This document shows, piece after piece, positions 3,394 through 28,214 of a stretch of 64,000 bases of DNA. The DNA lies in the NCBI RefSeq assembly GCF_900187945.1, contig NZ_FYEH01000004.1, positions 186,001 through 250,000 on the forward strand, in the 5' to 3' direction. A program made the position numbers and the translations under genes. Within the stretch, counting starts at the first letter, position 1. Each line of letters opens with the position of its first letter. The notes beneath the pieces are model-generated. The model was not told where the DNA came from. It ran no database searches and saw only the letters and a list, made by a program, of their open reading frames with translations. The DNA is from Arboricoccus pini. Its GTDB lineage: Bacteria; Pseudomonadota; Alphaproteobacteria; Geminicoccales; Geminicoccaceae.

Positions 3394-4659
3394 TCAATCG
3401 TCGGTTCGCGCAACCGGGGGGATCTCCTTGGCATAAAGGCGAAGGTCGAACTCAAGATCGACCGCCTTGTCCGGTGTCAGATCGTGATGACCGGCGAGTA
3501 GCTTGCGCCCGGCCATGTGATCACCTGCCTGATTGATCGATTCGATGCCAAGAAGACGGCCATTGCCAAAGCAGAAGACAGAGAATTTGCGTCCCGCCGG
3601 ATCCCCGCGGACCACGGCGCTGTCGTGACCGCCGGTGAGGCCGACGATCTGCAGCTTAAGGTCGCCCTGGTCGCTCCAGAACCAAGGTATACCCGCGTAG
3701 GGTGTCGGCCTGCCCATGAGCCGGGCCGCGACGTTGCGCGCCTGATCGACGGCGTTTTGCACCGATTCCAATCGTGTCGGTCCGGCGGCGAAGAAGCTCG
3801 GATAGAGACAGCAATCGCCGATCGCCGAGACATGGGGATCTTCGGTGCGCAGGAATTGGTTGACGACGATGCCATTCTCGCAGGCAAGGCCGGCCTCGGC
3901 CGCGAGTTCCTGGTTTGGCAGAACGCCGATGCCGACCAGGACCAGATCGGCTGCCAGTTGCTGGCCATCCTGGGTCACGACATGCGTAACCTGTCCCCCC
4001 ACGCCGTCGAAATGCGAGATACCCGTACCCAAGACGAACCGCGTGCCCCACGCCTCGTGGGCGTCGACGAAATATTGCGAGGTGATGGGTGACAGAGCGC
4101 GGCCGAGTGGACGCGTCGTCGCCTCGACGACCGTGACGTCGATGCCGGCCGCCCGCGCCACTGCGGCGAATTCCAGGCCAATGAAGCCCGCGCCAATCAC
4201 GACAGCCCGGCTTATGCCGGCCATGCTTCCCTTCAGCGACTGGGCGTCGGCCAGGGTTCGCAGGTAGAAGATGCCGTCCAGATCATGGCCGGGGACGTGG
4301 AGGGTCCTGTTGCGCGCACCCGTCGCCAGCACCAGCTCGTCATAGACCAGGGATTGGCCGTCATTGAGGACGACACGGCGGGCGGCGCGGTCAATCGCCG
4401 TTGCGCGCCTGCCCTCGATCAGCTCGATTTTCTTGTCGGCATAATAGGCGGGCGGCCGGAGACGCAACGCCTCCTCCACTGTCTTGCCCGTCAGGTAGGC
4501 CTTGGACAGCGGCGGCCGCTGGTAGGGAAATCCCGGCTCGTCGCCGATGAGGAGAAGACGGCCGTCAAACCCTTCGTCGCGCAGGGAAGCCGCCATCTGG
4601 TAGCCCCCCTGCCCCGAGCCGATGATGATGATCGTTCGCTTATCGACTGCGTCCGCCAT
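3394..4659 (-). CDS. FAD/NAD-dependent ferredoxin-reductase-type oxidoreductase
   Basis: This pyridine-nucleotide-disulfide-class flavoprotein resembles the reductases that pass electrons from NADH to a ferredoxin or rubredoxin partner for Rieske oxygenases or P450s. The FAD dinucleotide motif is GSGQGG (residues 14-19). The family-typical PYQRPPLSK follows at 45-53, the NAD motif GAGFIG is at 156-161, and a second FAD-contact motif SAIGDC is near residue 275. The C-terminal ~90 residues fit a Reductase_C domain. No ferredoxin, oxygenase or P450 gene is nearby, so its partner is unknown. It lies downstream of the polyol cluster on the same strand but 102 bp from the dehydrogenase, so cotranscription is uncertain. 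Confidence 0.85.
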   Translation of the reverse strand: MADAVDKRTIIIIGSGQGGYQMAASLRDEGFDGRLLLIGDEPGFPYQRPPLSKAYLTGKTVEEALRLRPPAYYADKKIELIEGRRATAIDRAARRVVLNDGQSLVYDELVLATGARNRTLHVPGHDLDGIFYLRTLADAQSLKGSMAGISRAVVIGAGFIGLEFAAVARAAGIDVTVVEATTRPLGRALSPITSQYFVDAHEAWGTRFVLGTGISHFDGVGGQVTHVVTQDGQQLAADLVLVGIGVLPNQELAAEAGLACENGIVVNQFLRTEDPHVSAIGDCCLYPSFFAAGPTRLESVQNAVDQARNVAARLMGRPTPYAGIPWFWSDQGDLKLQIVGLTGGHDSAVVRGDPAGRKFSVFCFGNGRLLGIESINQAGDHMAGRKLLAGHHDLTPDKAVDLEFDLRLYAKEIPPVARTDD

Positions 4660-22084: not shown

Positions 22085-22872
22085 CCTTTACCGGCCATCG
22101 TGAAGCCGCGGTTCGAGAGCTTAAGTGCGCGCAAATCGAGTTGCTGCGTCTTCTTGAAATCGGCCTGGGTTTGGTCGGAGAACTTCTGCACCGCTGCGTC
22201 GTCGCCAGCGCGCCGGATCTGATTAAACGCGCTTATCCGCATGAGGGCGTCGTAGATAATATTCTCGGCCTTGATCTGGCGATCACGCGCGGTGGCCTTC
22301 TTGAGCGAAGGGTCCTGCGCCAGGCTGTTGCGGATCTGCCCACGCACAGCCTGTGCCGCTTGCGCCGAAGGAGCGTCGGACTTATTGGCGATCATCCACA
22401 TCAAGATCATGTGCGCCGTTGCGACGTCGCTCAGATCGTTGATCGAGAAACCATAGGCCTTAAGGTCATCGGCAAAGCGCTCTTCGGCGCTGCGCTGTTG
22501 CAGCTGCTGGCGCACCTCTTCGGCACCCTGCGGATTTTGCGCCTTGATCTTCGCCAGGAACTGCTCCTGGATATCCTGGGACAGCTTCTTGTCATAAGTG
22601 ACGGCGATGCCACCACCACCTTTTACCGGAGCAGGTGCCTTGGCCGTCTTGGCCGGCGCCTTCTTGCTCGGCTGGGGGGCGGGTTGAGATTTTGGGGGCG
22701 CCGTATGCGGCACCGTAACGCCTGGGATGCCGCCACCTTGCGCCCCATTCTGGAAGATGTCCGTCTGGATGCTCTTGCTCTGTGCCCAGGCCGGTCCCGC
22801 GCCTACGCTCAAGATCGCCGCGAGCGCTATGCCGCAGCCAAGCTTGCTACCCATTCTTCTCTTCATCGTCAT
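22081..22872 (-). CDS. Secreted hypothetical protein, Pro/Ala/Lys-rich linker and helical C-terminus
   Basis: I cannot name this protein. The 263-residue precursor has a basic N-terminus, a hydrophobic core and a probable signal cleavage at AWA|QS near residue 30. A low-complexity linker rich in Pro, Ala and Lys (about residues 48-85) follows, then a helical domain with LSQDIQEQFLAKIK, VATAHMILMWMIANKSDAP and QIKAENIIYDALM. The WxxAN pattern recalls uncharacterised families such as DUF6683, but that is a guess. It should be periplasmic. ATGs at 22872 and 22866 are both possible starts, neither with a good ribosome site. Confidence 0.65.
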   Translation of the reverse strand: MTMKRRMGSKLGCGIALAAILSVGAGPAWAQSKSIQTDIFQNGAQGGGIPGVTVPHTAPPKSQPAPQPSKKAPAKTAKAPAPVKGGGGIAVTYDKKLSQDIQEQFLAKIKAQNPQGAEEVRQQLQQRSAEERFADDLKAYGFSINDLSDVATAHMILMWMIANKSDAPSAQAAQAVRGQIRNSLAQDPSLKKATARDRQIKAENIIYDALMRISAFNQIRRAGDDAAVQKFSDQTQADFKKTQQLDLRALKLSNRGFTMAGKG

Positions 22873-22927
22873 CCATCGCCAAGACGGCTCATATATAAGG
22901 GAGACCTATAGCACAATCTGTCACGGG

Positions 22928-24547
22928 TCAGGTCGTCGGCTGATCAAAATGGCGGGCGATGAGGTGCCTGAGGAGTGGTGGTTCGTCGCCTTTGTGATAG
23001 TGACGCACCCTAGCCTCGATAGCCTCGTCGGCTGCGGTCGCACGTCGCGCCTGCCGTCGATAATCGAGCCAACTGCGAACATCAAAAGCCTCGATCCAAT
23101 GCTCAGCGTCGGCAACGTCCTGAAACACCTGCCAATGCCTGGCGCCGTTGCGTTTGCGCAGATGCCCAACCTCCTCCATTGACCTCGCGAAAGCGCGGGC
23201 ATCCTGGACAGACACCCGATACTCGACGAGGACCAGGACCGGCCCCTCGTCCTGGCGAAAGGCAAAGGCCGTCGCCGGATCCTGCCGTCTCGTCGCAGCG
23301 GGTCGCAGGTCGGGTGCCGGGCCGGTCGGCAGATGGAAGACAAAGCCCAGAAAGCCGGTCGCCAGCATGCAGCCGCCCGCGGCTAGCAAAGCGGTCTGCA
23401 GGCTCGTCACCACGGCAAGTTCGCCCCAAAGCCACGAACCCAGCGCCATAGCGACGAACTGCGTCATCTGATAAAAAGAAAAAATGCGCGCTTGAACCCA
23501 GAAGGCCGAGATCGTCTGGATCGAAATGTTGAGACTGGTGAACGAGCCGAGCCAGCCGATGCCGCCCAGCGCCAGCGCGAAGACCATGACGATCTTATAG
23601 GGTACCAGGGCGAGAATCAGCAGTTGCAGGGCGAAAATCACCGCTAGGCAACGTACCAGCAGATCGGCACCTAGCTTCTGGCGCAGGGTATGGATGAAGA
23701 AGGCACTGCCCATTGCGCCCGCGCCGAAGCCGCCGAGCAAGAGGCCATACGTGACGGGGCCGCCACCCGCGAGGTCGCGGGCGACAAGCGGCAAAAGCGC
23801 TATTGGAGCCGTAGCGGCGAAGGCAAAGGCGGCACTGCGGATGACCGTCGACTGGATCGGTCGGGTTTCCAGTGCATAGCGAAGGCCGGTGATGATGGCA
23901 CTGGCCACATGCTCGCGCGGCAGATCGTCCTTGAGCTTGGGCCGCCGCCAGAACAGCAACACCGCAATCAGGCCTATATAGGAAACGGCGTTGACGAGGA
24001 AAGCGGCCTGCGCCCCTGCGGTCGCAACGAGAATGCCGCCAATGCCCGGTGCAGCCGACCGAGCAAAGTTATAGGCAATGCTGCTTAGCGTCACGGCGGC
24101 CGGCAGATCCTCCGGCGGAACCAACTCGCGCATGACGGACTGAGACGCCGGCCCCTGTAAGGCCGCACCAAGACCGAGCGCGAAGGTCAATCCCAACAGA
24201 GCCCAAGGCGTTATCAAGCCCATAAACGTCATGAGCGAGAGGAGCGTCGAGACGGCGAACATCCAGAGCTGAGCGATCAGCAGGACGACACGCCGATCCC
24301 ACAGATCGGCCGCAGCTCCCGCTAAGAGCGAGAGAACCACGATCGGCAATTGTTCGGCGGTTTGCACGAGTGCCACCATGTCGGCGGTGCCGGCAAGTGA
24401 CGTCATCAACCAAGCCGCTGCAGTCCCCTGGATGAGCCAGCCAAAATTGGACAGCATGGTTGCGCTCCACAGAGCGCGAAACATGCCGATACGCAGGGGG
24501 GCGGTTAGCCCACCGGAATTTGGGGGCCGTTGTGGGCGGGTGAGCAT
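22928..24547 (-). CDS. MFS transporter of the transmembrane-secretion-effector (MFS_3) type
   Basis: The 539-residue protein has a 12-helix major facilitator domain (~20-410) resembling the enterobactin-exporter-like MFS_3 branch: FRALWSATMLSNFGWLIQG, VVLSLLAGAAADLWDRR (the signature loop after TM2) and GPASQSVMRELVP. A soluble C-terminal domain of about 120 residues (from VLVLVEYRVSVQDARAFA) looks like a ferredoxin-like antibiotic-biosynthesis-monooxygenase fold, a common appendage in this branch. The substrate is unknown, and no siderophore genes are nearby. It lies 55 bp after the secreted hypothetical's start on the same strand, with no sign of coupling. Confidence 0.88.
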   Translation of the reverse strand: MLTRPQRPPNSGGLTAPLRIGMFRALWSATMLSNFGWLIQGTAAAWLMTSLAGTADMVALVQTAEQLPIVVLSLLAGAAADLWDRRVVLLIAQLWMFAVSTLLSLMTFMGLITPWALLGLTFALGLGAALQGPASQSVMRELVPPEDLPAAVTLSSIAYNFARSAAPGIGGILVATAGAQAAFLVNAVSYIGLIAVLLFWRRPKLKDDLPREHVASAIITGLRYALETRPIQSTVIRSAAFAFAATAPIALLPLVARDLAGGGPVTYGLLLGGFGAGAMGSAFFIHTLRQKLGADLLVRCLAVIFALQLLILALVPYKIVMVFALALGGIGWLGSFTSLNISIQTISAFWVQARIFSFYQMTQFVAMALGSWLWGELAVVTSLQTALLAAGGCMLATGFLGFVFHLPTGPAPDLRPAATRRQDPATAFAFRQDEGPVLVLVEYRVSVQDARAFARSMEEVGHLRKRNGARHWQVFQDVADAEHWIEAFDVRSWLDYRRQARRATAADEAIEARVRHYHKGDEPPLLRHLIARHFDQPTT

Positions 24548-24679
24548 TCGTCGGGATTACGACGACGCCCCGCCACCTACAAGGACAACGCCGCGCTTTT
24601 AATCGATGAGTGGCGGGAACTCTTCAGCAAACGCTATGATTGCGGGAGCCTAAGCGCTCAACCGACGTCTTAGCGTTTG

Positions 24680-24847
24680 TCAGCCTCGCCGACGCTGGAC
24701 CGGAACGGTCGCCAGCACGGAGCGACGCGCTGGCCATTCGCCATATTTACGCTCAAATTCCCTGGTCATCCAGCGAGCATAAGCAAGCCCGATCACTCCC
24801 ATGGCCAGTACGACCGTCGGCACTCCGTAACCAAACCATGGATCCAT
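24680..24847 (-). CDS. 55-residue single-helix membrane protein
   Basis: This is a very short gene. Translation gives MDPWFGYGVPTVVLAMG followed by VIGLAYARWMTREFERKYG, then a basic tail ending PVQRRRG and TGA. One transmembrane helix near residues 8-24 and a charged cytoplasmic tail are evident. GAGGA, the last codons of the upstream gene, lies 6-7 nt before ATG 24847. A second in-frame ATG at 24853 overlaps the upstream TGA (ATGA). The coupling makes it the third member of a small-protein operon. The function is unknown. Confidence 0.6.
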   Translation of the reverse strand: MDPWFGYGVPTVVLAMGVIGLAYARWMTREFERKYGEWPARRSVLATVPVQRRRG

Positions 24848-24849
24848 GT

Positions 24850-25110
24850 TCATTCCTCGCTTTCCAGTCGGCCCAGGACCAGCTGTCCCATTATATGTAA
24901 GGCGATTGCCGCGAGAAGCCAGAGCATTGTGAAGCGATCGACGTGAATCTCATGCATCTGGCTAAGGGGAACGAACAAGCCCGCCGCAAACATGGCCACC
25001 GCCCCATTATTTAGCAGCGCCGAAAGGAGCTTCAAGCGTTCGTTGATACGCCGTGCCGCACGCCGGCGCCGGACTCCCAGCACTACCTCGTCTTCCTCGC
25101 GAGAAGCCAT
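24850..25110 (-). CDS. Small two-helix membrane protein, hypothetical
   Basis: The 86-residue product has a basic N-terminus (RRRRAARRINER), a hydrophobic span LLNNGAVAMFAAGLFVPL, a short His-containing loop and a second span MLWLLAAIALHIMGQLVLG, so it should be an inner-membrane hairpin with both ends in the cytoplasm. No family is recognised. It starts 18 bp after the stop of the CopG-like gene, and its own stop is overlapped by the 55-residue gene, forming a compact operon. Its ribosome site is poor. Confidence 0.65.
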   Translation of the reverse strand: MASREEDEVVLGVRRRRAARRINERLKLLSALLNNGAVAMFAAGLFVPLSQMHEIHVDRFTMLWLLAAIALHIMGQLVLGRLESEE

Positions 25111-25128
25111 TCGTGGCGCAGGCTCGCC

Positions 25129-25506
25129 CTAGGACCGTTGACCCATTGCCGACGATGCACCAACCGCTGTTAGCTCGATCAGCGTCTCCAGCCGGGCCGT
25201 GCGCCGCTCGAGAGCAAGATAGCGTTCCTCGGTTCGCCGCAGGCGTGCCAGCAGCGAATCAAGGCTGGGCCGCGCCTCCCGCTCACCGCCCTCGCGTTGC
25301 CCGCCATCTGTCGCCGCGCGCACGATGGCGGAAGCGTCGGTCTGGTCGAGCTTCTCCAGTTGATCTTCGAGCCGAATCACATAGAGAATGGCGCGTCGCA
25401 GATAATCCGCAATCGGCACCCCTTCCCGCCGCGCGCTCTCCTCCAGCGATACTTTTTCCTCTCGGCTCAGCAGGATCTCGACCGAAACGAACTCGGATTC
25501 AGCCAT
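25129..25506 (-). CDS. Hypothetical protein with RHH-like N-terminus and coiled-coil C-terminus
   Basis: In this 125-residue protein, the N-terminal segment SVEILLSREEKVSLEESARR, followed by GVPIADYLRRAIL, resembles a ribbon-helix-helix (CopG-like) DNA-binding fold. Residues ~85-118 are strongly coiled-coil (LLARLRRTEERYLALERR). No toxin gene is adjacent, so an antitoxin role is not supported. GGAG precedes ATG 25506. It lies 39 bp after the M16 peptidase stop and leads the two small membrane-protein genes. Confidence 0.65.
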   Translation of the reverse strand: MAESEFVSVEILLSREEKVSLEESARREGVPIADYLRRAILYVIRLEDQLEKLDQTDASAIVRAATDGGQREGGEREARPSLDSLLARLRRTEERYLALERRTARLETLIELTAVGASSAMGQRS

Positions 25507-25545
25507 GGCGATCGCTCCGATGCGAGTGAAAAGCTTGGCCCGGCA

Positions 25546-26817
25546 TCAAGATGCCAATCGATGCAGGTTGATTGGGGGAAGATCCTTGAGCGGCCCTACC
25601 GCCGCCACGGTTGTCGAGCTGCCGGAAAACAGACGCTGGCCCACACGCCGGATCGCCGCCTCGTCCACAGCGTCCACGAGGGCGATCAATTCGGCCGCGT
25701 CCTTGCGTCGCCCGAAGCTCAGCAACTGGCGGGCCGTATCATCGGTGACGTTGTAAGCACCCTCCAAGGCCATCAGCAGGCTGGCCTTGAGCTGGGCTCG
25801 CGCCCGCGCGATCTCCCCGGCACGCGGGTCGGCGATAAACTTGGCAGCTTCCGCTTCGACTACTTGAAACAACTCCGGCACCGCGCCCGGATCCGTGCCC
25901 GCATAGACGCCGAAAATTCCAGTATCTTCATAGGCTGCCGCAAATGAGAAAACGGAATAGCAAAGACCGCGATTCTCACGAACTTCCTGAAAGAGACGCG
26001 AGGACATGCCGCCGCCCAGGGCTGCTGAGAAGACCTGAAGGGCAAAATAGTCAGGATCGTCGTGGCCGAATGCCTCGACGCCCACAACGACATGCGCCTG
26101 CTCGAGATCCTTGCGGGGCTCCAGCTTGATCCCGCCCACGTAAGTAGCGCGCGGCGGGCGCACCGCGGTGGCGGACTTTGCCGGCAGATCGGTGAAGAGC
26201 TTCGCACCTAGATCGACGAGAGCTTCATGATCGACCTTGCCACCAGCCGCCAAGATCATGCGGGAGGGGCTATAATGGGCGCGCATATAGCCAAGCACGG
26301 TGTCCCGCGTCATGCCACCGACGATTTCCTCCGGGCCCAGGATCGACCGGCCGAGCGGCTGATCGGGATAGGCTGCCTCCTGGAAAACGTCGAAGACCCA
26401 GTCATCGGGCGTATCCCGTGCCTGCCCGATCTCCTGCAGGATCACCTCCCGTTCTTTCTCGAGCTCGCCTTCATCCAAGGTCGAGTTCTGCAGAATATCC
26501 GAGATCAGGTCAGCGGCGAGTGGCACATCAGAGCCGAGGATACGCGCATAGAAGGCCGTATGCTCACGCGAGGTGTAGGCATTAACCGAGCCCCCCACAT
26601 CCTCTATCTCCTCGGCCAGACCGCGCGCGCTACGTCTCCGCGTGCCTTTGAAGGCCATGTGTTCGAGGAGATGCGCCACGCCGTTGACGTTGGCTTCCTC
26701 GTAACGCGCGCCGACATCGACCCATACGCCCAGGCAGGTCGTCTCAAGGTTGGGCATGGATTCGCTCGCCACGCGCATGCCGTTATCGAGTTCCGTCAGC
26801 TTGAACATGCTGCTCAT
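25546..26817 (-). CDS. M16 family zinc metalloprotease (processing-peptidase-like)
   Basis: The 423-residue protein has the inverted zinc motif HLLEH (His49-x2-Glu52-His53) in a setting like mitochondrial processing peptidase beta and the bacterial YmxG proteins: GVWVDVGARYE, then HMAFKGT. The downstream Glu ligand is expected in the EREVILQEI segment near residue 129. It is probably cytoplasmic, since no signal peptide is seen. It is coupled to thrC by a 4-nt ATGA overlap, an order common in alphaproteobacteria. Its natural substrate is unknown. Confidence 0.92.
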   Translation of the reverse strand: MSSMFKLTELDNGMRVASESMPNLETTCLGVWVDVGARYEEANVNGVAHLLEHMAFKGTRRRSARGLAEEIEDVGGSVNAYTSREHTAFYARILGSDVPLAADLISDILQNSTLDEGELEKEREVILQEIGQARDTPDDWVFDVFQEAAYPDQPLGRSILGPEEIVGGMTRDTVLGYMRAHYSPSRMILAAGGKVDHEALVDLGAKLFTDLPAKSATAVRPPRATYVGGIKLEPRKDLEQAHVVVGVEAFGHDDPDYFALQVFSAALGGGMSSRLFQEVRENRGLCYSVFSFAAAYEDTGIFGVYAGTDPGAVPELFQVVEAEAAKFIADPRAGEIARARAQLKASLLMALEGAYNVTDDTARQLLSFGRRKDAAELIALVDAVDEAAIRRVGQRLFSGSSTTVAAVGPLKDLPPINLHRLAS

Positions 26818-28214
26818 GAAATCGAAAATCTTTCGGTGATGAGCGTCTCGACCTCGCGCAGGTCGTTGCCCGCCGTGACCGTACTCTCGGGAAGATCCAT
26901 CAAGTGAGCGTATCGCGGCGGTAATGCCGGGTGGATCCCTGATGCCGTGGCGACCGCGTCCGGGAACTTGGCCGGATGGGCTGTCGATAAGCTGATCATC
27001 GGCACGCCTTTGGGCGGCATGTGCAGCTCAGCGACGTGGAGTGCGACGGCCGTGTGCGGATCGACGAGCTCGCCTGTGCGCTCATGCGTGTTGGCAATCA
27101 TAGCCGCCGTAGCCCGCTCGCTGGCGCTGCCGCCCTTCATAAAGGTGGAAACGCGCTCGAGGCTGCCATGGTCGACCTCGAATTCGCCGCTTTGGGCAAA
27201 GCTTGCCATGCGTCGCCGCACGCCGCCTGCATCATTCCCTTCGAGGTCAAGCAGCAAGCGTTCGAAGTTGCTGGCCACCTGAATATCCATCGAGGGACTC
27301 ATCGTTGGCACGACGCCATCCTTCGCATAGACCCCGCCTTCGAAAAAGCGCGCCAGGATGTCGTTGGCGTTCGTTGCAACTGTCAGCTGTTCGATCGGCA
27401 GGCCCATCTGCCTCGCGGCCCACCCCGCATAGACATTGCCGAAATTCCCGGTCGGCACGCAAAACGCCGAAGGGCGATCGGGCGCCCCCAATCGCAACGC
27501 AGCCCAGAAATAATAGACGCTCTGTGCCGCGATGCGGGCCCAGTTGATCGAATTCACAGCCGACATGTTGATCCGCGTGCGGAACGGCTGATCCGCAAAC
27601 ATCGCCTTCACGAGGTCCTGACAATCGTCGAACGTCCCGGCAAGCGCGATGTTTAGAACATTATCCGCCAGGATCGTCGTCATCTGCCGGCGCTGGACCG
27701 GCGAGATTCGCCCCTCCGGATGCAACATCGCCACCCTGACCTGCGATTTGCCGGCAAAGGCCTGGACGGCGGCGGCACCGGTATCACCCGACGTCGCGCC
27801 AACGATGGTGATCGTCTCGCCGCGCCGCGTGAGCACCCGATCAAACATTTCCGCCAGCAATTGCATGGCGAAGTCCTTGAAGGCCAGGGTCGGCCCGTGG
27901 AACAGTTCAAGCAGCCAGAGATCGGTATCCAGCTGTTTTAACGGCGCCACTGCCGGATGATCGAATCTCCCATAAACAGCCGAGGCCATCTCCAGAAGGT
28001 CGGCACGCGTAAAGCAGCCCTCGGTGAAGGGGGCCAGCACCTCGGCCGCCAGTTCGGGATAGGTCATCGCCCGCATCCGCCGAAGGTCGGCGGCTGAAAA
28101 GCGTGGCCACGCAGCGGGAACGAACAATCCGCCATCCTCGGCCAGGCCGGCAAGGAGCACGCTCTCGAAATCGCGACCGTCGATCCCGCCGCGCGTGCTC
28201 TTGTATCCTGTCAT
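26814..28214 (-). CDS. thrC: Threonine synthase
   Basis: ThrC converts O-phosphohomoserine to threonine with PLP. The 466-residue protein shows the PLP-lysine motif in LAFKDFAMQ near residue 113, the phosphate-binding ATSGDTGAAA loop, and the class-typical YKSTRGG N-terminus. NFGNVYAGW and the C-terminal TAHPAKFPDA are also characteristic of the longer proteobacterial/yeast form. It follows the M32 carboxypeptidase by 13 bp, and its stop overlaps the M16 peptidase start. Confidence 0.95.
   Translation of the reverse strand: MTGYKSTRGGIDGRDFESVLLAGLAEDGGLFVPAAWPRFSAADLRRMRAMTYPELAAEVLAPFTEGCFTRADLLEMASAVYGRFDHPAVAPLKQLDTDLWLLELFHGPTLAFKDFAMQLLAEMFDRVLTRRGETITIVGATSGDTGAAAVQAFAGKSQVRVAMLHPEGRISPVQRRQMTTILADNVLNIALAGTFDDCQDLVKAMFADQPFRTRINMSAVNSINWARIAAQSVYYFWAALRLGAPDRPSAFCVPTGNFGNVYAGWAARQMGLPIEQLTVATNANDILARFFEGGVYAKDGVVPTMSPSMDIQVASNFERLLLDLEGNDAGGVRRRMASFAQSGEFEVDHGSLERVSTFMKGGSASERATAAMIANTHERTGELVDPHTAVALHVAELHMPPKGVPMISLSTAHPAKFPDAVATASGIHPALPPRYAHLMDLPESTVTAGNDLREVETLITERFSIS

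Follow-up and report, generated by a model that had tools for sequence, protein, structure and literature searches.

The window analysed here is a 64,000-nucleotide stretch of a contig of Arboricoccus pini. Three small genes, here called A, B and C, lie behind thrC and an M16 peptidase gene (Table 1), and the ORF coordinates bear out the preliminary description of them as one operon-like run; all three are on the minus strand. thrC and M16 overlap by 4 nt, M16 and A are 39 nt apart, A and B 18 nt apart, and 132 nt separate C from the MFS gene. The protein types given there (RHH-like/coiled-coil, two-TM and one-TM) agree with a weak Pfam match for A and with hydropathy, which predicts no TM segment in A, two in B and one in C. 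By Pfam the window copy does not lie in a recognisable prophage: its neighbours are thrC, M16, MFS_3, M32 and a 263-aa protein, the last having no Pfam match above cut-off.

Table 1. Features of the A-B-C locus (window coordinates)
Feature	Coordinates	Strand	Description
A	25129..25506	-	125 aa; probable ribbon-helix-helix protein, coiled coil at the C-terminus; proposed cassette regulator
B	24850..25110	-	86 aa; two-TM protein
C	24680..24853	-	57 aa (55 aa if start 24847); one-TM protein
Candidate operator	25507..25566		four GATGC words; partly within M16 3′ end
M16 peptidase	25546..26817	-	Pfam Peptidase_M16 and M16_C; upstream neighbour, same directon
thrC threonine synthase	26814..28214	-	Pfam Thr_synth_N, PALP; upstream of M16
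MFS_3 transporter	22928..24547	-	Pfam MFS_3, E 2.5e-168

C has two possible starts. The B-C junction is -4 nt for the 57-aa protein, whose start forms the ATGA, and +2 nt for the 55-aa protein, which begins at 24847, past the B stop. GAGGA lies six nt upstream of the 24847 start, and this Shine-Dalgarno spacing favours the 55-aa protein. The 55 residues and the ATGA overlap of the preliminary description therefore refer to different starts.

A codon model was trained on the contig's own long ORFs, 143 in number. On the minus strand A and B have scores typical of true genes, A at the 35th percentile of in-frame fragments (a score reached by 3.1% of off-frame fragments) and B at the 32nd (4.7%). 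The score of C is weak (10th percentile in-frame, reached by 12% of off-frame fragments). Three plus-strand ORFs opposing the trio have negative codon scores; those at 25053-25529 (158 aa) and 24677-24946 (89 aa) were rejected as shadows with such scores. Scanning of positions 22800-26900 yielded one promoter against 1.0 expected, and six terminator-like sites against 3.5 expected (sd 1.7), none of them between C and the MFS gene. The 91 nt around the end of C fold with a z-score of -2.03, the next stretch with -0.50.

A is probably a ribbon-helix-helix protein. Its start is preceded by an SD-like GGAG, and it matches the Pfam NikA-like RHH family with E 4.1e-4 and 20.9 bits, under the curated cut-off of 27. 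This weak match is a likeness to the NikA-like, CopG and Arc RHH proteins, from which A differs by its long C-terminal coiled coil and by the absence of adjoining mobilisation genes. The single-sequence AlphaFold2 model (mean pLDDT 63.6) has a disordered start followed by helices 15-28, 32-66, 82-111 and 113-120; it contains no strand. A fold search with A against the PDB gave no match at E 0.001, P22 Arc appearing at rank 47 with a non-significant E of 3.1. In the class sample A was found in 4 of 385 genomes at E 0.003, namely its own and three in which the match lay inside frames of 445-987 aa; among 60 genomes the best match beyond its own (E 0.0016) was inside a 445-aa frame. No relative turned up in plasmids, viral contigs or phages. 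Within the sets searched A has no convincing homologue, and the case for it as a gene is made by the codon score and the weak RHH match.

The protein probably binds near its own start, where GATGC words, three direct and one inverted and including GGCATC-AA-GATGCC, offer a candidate site. None of the window's 1065 fixed 60-nt tiles holds four such words, a comparison with a site that was picked after looking and that straddles two of the tiles; a comparable short palindrome occurs in 96 of the 1065.

B is characterised by an amphipathic xNERxKL start, a proline at the end of TM1, a histidine in TM2 and an acidic SEE tail. AlphaFold2 predicts a hairpin of helices 2-50 and 59-85 with a mean pLDDT of 79.9. 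Two types make up the family: (i) SLVHNERTKLTATYLNG, ending in ARxxLxxL, and (ii) RRRxAKRxNERVKLLA with a mostly SEE/SED-type tail; window B is of type ii. Of 51 B sequences, counted without one duplicate, 48 have the N/D-E/D-x-x-K pattern and 47, by a loose pattern, a histidine in the TM2 region.

Family libraries did not recognise B or C. Window B has no significant Pfam match and its best NCBIfam value is 0.082; for ten B members the best Pfam value was 0.013, each family being hit by one member only. Window C reached 0.24 in Pfam and matched nothing in NCBIfam. Up to E 1, PHROGs did not match window B or C, PADLOC did not match any of the three window proteins, and no PDB sequence matched the B profile. 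A fold search with B among viral models gave no match at E 0.001. One relative, L166, matches Cmr5 of PADLOC at 0.027. In the open-licence literature, as far as its accessible text goes, no description of such a B-C pair was found. The pair illustrates how family libraries can overlook small-protein cargo.

In a single-sequence search of the class, B was found in 4 of 385 genomes at E 0.003, among them G311 (E 2.7e-8) and G164 (E 3.7e-4), both of which carry a tiny one-TM ORF right behind B. A match in G259, inside a 342-aa frame, was dropped as chance. Profile A1 gave 9 of 385 genomes at E 0.01, six of them weak, and profile A5 gave 3 of 372 at E 1e-4. Profiles found 36 B matches in 21 of 119 sampled genomes of the GTDB family of G311, up to four per genome (31 of the 36 places were inspected), and B was present in 6 of 71 genomes of its order. 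The family of G311 may be Beijerinckiaceae, given that a Methylobacterium plasmid also bears a pair. In the phylum sample it was restricted to the window genome and G311 (2 of 70), with none in the 52 sampled genomes outside the class. G311 itself has three B-like genes, two accompanied by C (L154, L186) and one, L163, with a long insert between the helices and no C. Profile and sequence searches also placed the family on ten IMG/VR contigs. Three queries found nothing in INPHARED phages; in plasmids two queries found nothing and one found three records.

The stop codon of B is regularly followed by C. A one-TM ORF of 28-65 aa, its start between -14 and +20 nt relative to the B stop, was present at 39 of 46 B loci, a set including the window and one duplicate (L168 and L195 are identical in sequence), as against 34 of 1141 control ORF ends. 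The C start is at the ATGA position in 24 of the 39 pairs, and the B stop is followed by such an ORF at six loci beyond the 46 as well. Seven loci did not score (L163, L179, L182, L183, L184, L190, L194): L182 and L190 do have such an ORF at the B stop, of 108 and 111 aa and so above the limit of 65 aa, and the B frame of L179 continues into a C-like end. B proteins are mostly 65-125 aa long and C proteins 30-58 aa, longer in two. Window C has a REFERKY motif behind its TM segment, its relatives an FDRKY-type motif. An acidic B tail and an FDR-type C motif tend to occur together (40 pairs including the window, 10/2/4/24, Fisher p 6e-5, with regexes chosen after looking and sequences that are related), and the association hints at a contact. 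Judged by these comparisons, B and C are a conserved pair with overlapping or abutting genes.

The reality of window C was assessed with a profile of 11 type-ii C proteins, two of them hand-trimmed to the first 50 residues, from which window C was left out. Among 1368 window segments the profile matched window C at E 1.1e-9, the runner-up standing at 0.41; with all other C proteins in the profile the value was 2.2e-8. The third frame is therefore a conserved gene: by profile homology, window C is a true homologue of the other C proteins and a real gene. The two findings that would have refuted the preliminary description, a third frame that was not conserved and genes that did not co-occur elsewhere, were not obtained for B and C. 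Its remark that so small a gene is easily missed proved apt as well. In a Methylobacterium plasmid (L202, 2497-2733) and a Pelagibacterium plasmid (L203, 3950-4195) B is annotated as a hypothetical protein, and the C ORF right behind it is missing from both gene tables, which are incomplete. The regular partner of a tiny two-TM protein is a gene of 30-57 residues, small enough for annotation to overlook.

The expectation that the trio would be conserved after thrC-M16 was not upheld. M16 was matched in 26 of 31 genomes of the family, the window genome included and no other member of its genus among them. Twenty of the other 25 loci were compared, one of which (L037) ends right behind M16, and none encodes A, B or C (tblastn, best E 0.64). 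In 60 genomes, made up of the window genome and 59 relatives (30 of the same family), only the window's own copies of B and C rose above chance, single-sequence matches outside that genome being E 0.015 or worse. thrC stands beside M16 at 77 of the 80 alphaproteobacterial M16 loci that were kept from the genome contigs. tblastn matches to the trio at these 80 loci, many with short flanks, were unconvincing (best E 0.011 for B, 0.032 for C and 0.065 for A), and a first pattern scan of genome contigs for B gave 120 matches, none confirmed.

Genera of the window's family differ in the gene after M16. MFS_3 directly follows M16 in 7 of the 20 loci, from two genera (five in g6, two in g16), with -20 to 131 nt from the M16 stop to the MFS homology; the window has 998 nt, trio included, between M16 and the MFS start. 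From the direct succession of M16 and MFS in these relatives the trio looks inserted, and a gain on the way to the window genome is a more economical assumption than repeated losses, which are a less likely course. GC content gives no compositional sign of recent transfer, that of the trio being the window average (0.614); acquired genes would have had to ameliorate or to stem from a donor with a similar composition.

Sixteen of the B-C loci are mobile: ten phage contigs (L164, L195, L196, L197, L198, L199, L200, L201, L209, L210), three plasmid records (L202, L203, L204) and three loci judged to be prophages from their neighbours (L167, L174, L187). At seven of the 16 a small DNA-binding gene lies directly upstream of B-C on the same strand, at spacings from a 4-nt overlap to 48 nt. 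It matches RHH_1 below cut-off in L164 and L197, Arc above cut-off in L174 and L204 (a further likeness to the RHH proteins named above), and HTH_3 above cut-off in L195 and L210; in L202 it is annotated as a transcriptional regulator, with an HTH match below cut-off. The other nine have no DNA-binding gene directly upstream; in L167 one is 256 nt away, and in L201 the small upstream genes match no profile. Chromosomal copies mostly lack an upstream DNA-binding gene, and of 34 loci taken as chromosomal only L211 has, by reading, a MarR-like gene just upstream. Window A reads as another instance of a regulator upstream of B-C. It aligns poorly with the other upstream RHH proteins (19-34% identity), so the trio is one design with different regulators and not one inherited block. 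The conserved unit is B-C, and its DNA-binding partner is optional and drawn from several unrelated families. The surroundings of the relatives indicate mobile elements.

In the related phage contigs L196 (3986-4326) and L209 (4001-4363) the B-C pairs are on the strand opposite to their large neighbours. Directly behind the pair the two contigs are 93% identical over 2440 nt; on the other side a 442-nt stretch is 69% identical and one of 607 nt, farther away, 92%. The B-C regions themselves belong to different subfamilies and give no blastn alignment with each other, and L196 has an extra 111-aa ORF before the pair. The pattern looks like an exchangeable accessory cassette, and the B-C family in this respect behaves as morons do in phage and prophage sequence. 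In the phage contig L164 the B protein (3863-4234, 123 aa) has an extra N-terminal TM segment and may have arisen by fusion to a second small membrane protein.

Our preferred reading, held with somewhat less than even confidence, is that A-B-C is an acquired moron-like cassette consisting of an RHH regulator and a two-subunit membrane module, whose most likely effect would be superinfection exclusion or a related envelope change. The cassette architecture is very probable; the exclusion function, considered separately, is plausible and distinctly more doubtful. The genes would have been acquired horizontally and lodged behind the thrC-M16 operon. Positive-inside reasoning would place both ends of B and the tail of C in the cytoplasm, B as an N-in, C-in hairpin and C as an N-out, C-in anchor. 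The ATGA overlap in 24 of 39 pairs suggests coupled synthesis and hence a complex: B and C may associate in the inner membrane through their TM helices and their charged cytoplasmic tails, the acidic tail of B and the FDRKY-type motif of C. A, as an RHH dimer, would repress or tune its own operon. The B-C complex would alter the inner membrane of its carrier and in this way keep out incoming phage DNA or a rival element. Superinfection exclusion, if that is the function, would explain why temperate phages and hosts both keep the cassette, and the benefit most likely to be common to phages, plasmids and hosts is that competitors are shut out at the inner membrane.

Superinfection exclusion proteins and related morons of temperate phages are membrane-located. 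B-C resembles them as accessory genes carried by prophages and differs in having two paired tiny subunits, an exchangeable regulator and no library match; its exclusion activity is putative. P22 SieA is an example of such proteins (PMC10883804). In Fc02, olg1/gene 10 is reported as a very small overlapping gene near a repressor gene, as B-C can be, and is tied to phage exclusion; it differs in that the overlap is between frames and strands and in that a match to a DEDDh exonuclease domain is reported for olg1, and the text examined does not use the word transmembrane (PMC9936078).

The main alternative, which we consider unlikely, is a host envelope module, in which the B-C complex tunes a transporter, protease or respiratory complex and, having spread by transfer, was fixed behind housekeeping operons for steady expression. 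The upstream gene is on the same strand in 27 of 33 scorable chromosomal loci (34 examined; a count without a control), many of the upstream genes look like housekeeping genes, among them ones read as ilvD, metH, mutS, thrS, rpsI and asd (names by reading), and a genome can hold as many as four B matches. The lack of a DNA-binding gene at nine of 16 mobile loci and at most chromosomal copies fits a housekeeping membrane role as well. The phage-borne copies, the cassette exchange and the regulators, in contrast, indicate accessory cargo, and no constant neighbour that might be a substrate was seen in the loci examined.

Hydrophobic toxins and holins are, like B and C, tiny proteins with one or two TM segments; B-C differs from both in being paired and in having no adjoining lysis genes in the loci read. 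RHH proteins are common antitoxins and tiny one-TM proteins resemble hydrophobic toxins, so that B and/or C could be membrane toxins with A as antitoxin or repressor. Two upstream genes do match FitA-like RHH, one slightly over the cut-off and the other slightly under it. Most loci, however, have no partner regulator, which would leave a toxin pair unguarded, and the regulators are of unrelated folds; the constant pair of a type II toxin-antitoxin system was not found across the B-C loci, and we regard this reading as improbable. That tiny two-TM and one-TM proteins occur in phages would also suit a holin and antiholin. By reading, L197 has SAR endolysin-, holin- and spanin-like genes elsewhere and on the other strand, and in L196 about 3 kb separate B-C from an endolysin-like gene, so neither has the endolysin linkage of a holin. 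The strand of the pairs in L196 and L209, opposite to that of the neighbours, and the absence, by reading, of lysis-like genes within about 1.5 kb on either side of the chromosomal loci make a lysis role very unlikely. The weak codon score of C is what chance ORFs without function would give; for B and C this is refuted by homology across families and mobile elements, and such an origin is scarcely credible.

Within the cassette reading a bolder version can be stated, to which we give a rather low probability: that B-C is an undescribed two-subunit anti-phage/exclusion system in the inner membrane of alphaproteobacteria, with phage versions under interchangeable CopG/Arc/XRE regulators and host versions behind housekeeping operons. 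The nearly invariant histidine in TM2 of B might act as the gate of a pore kept in check by C until infection. A pair common to temperate phages, plasmids and chromosomes, and exchanged at one site between related phages, is a ready target for a simple exclusion assay. The exchange site shared by L196 and L209 is itself worth mining for other cargo.
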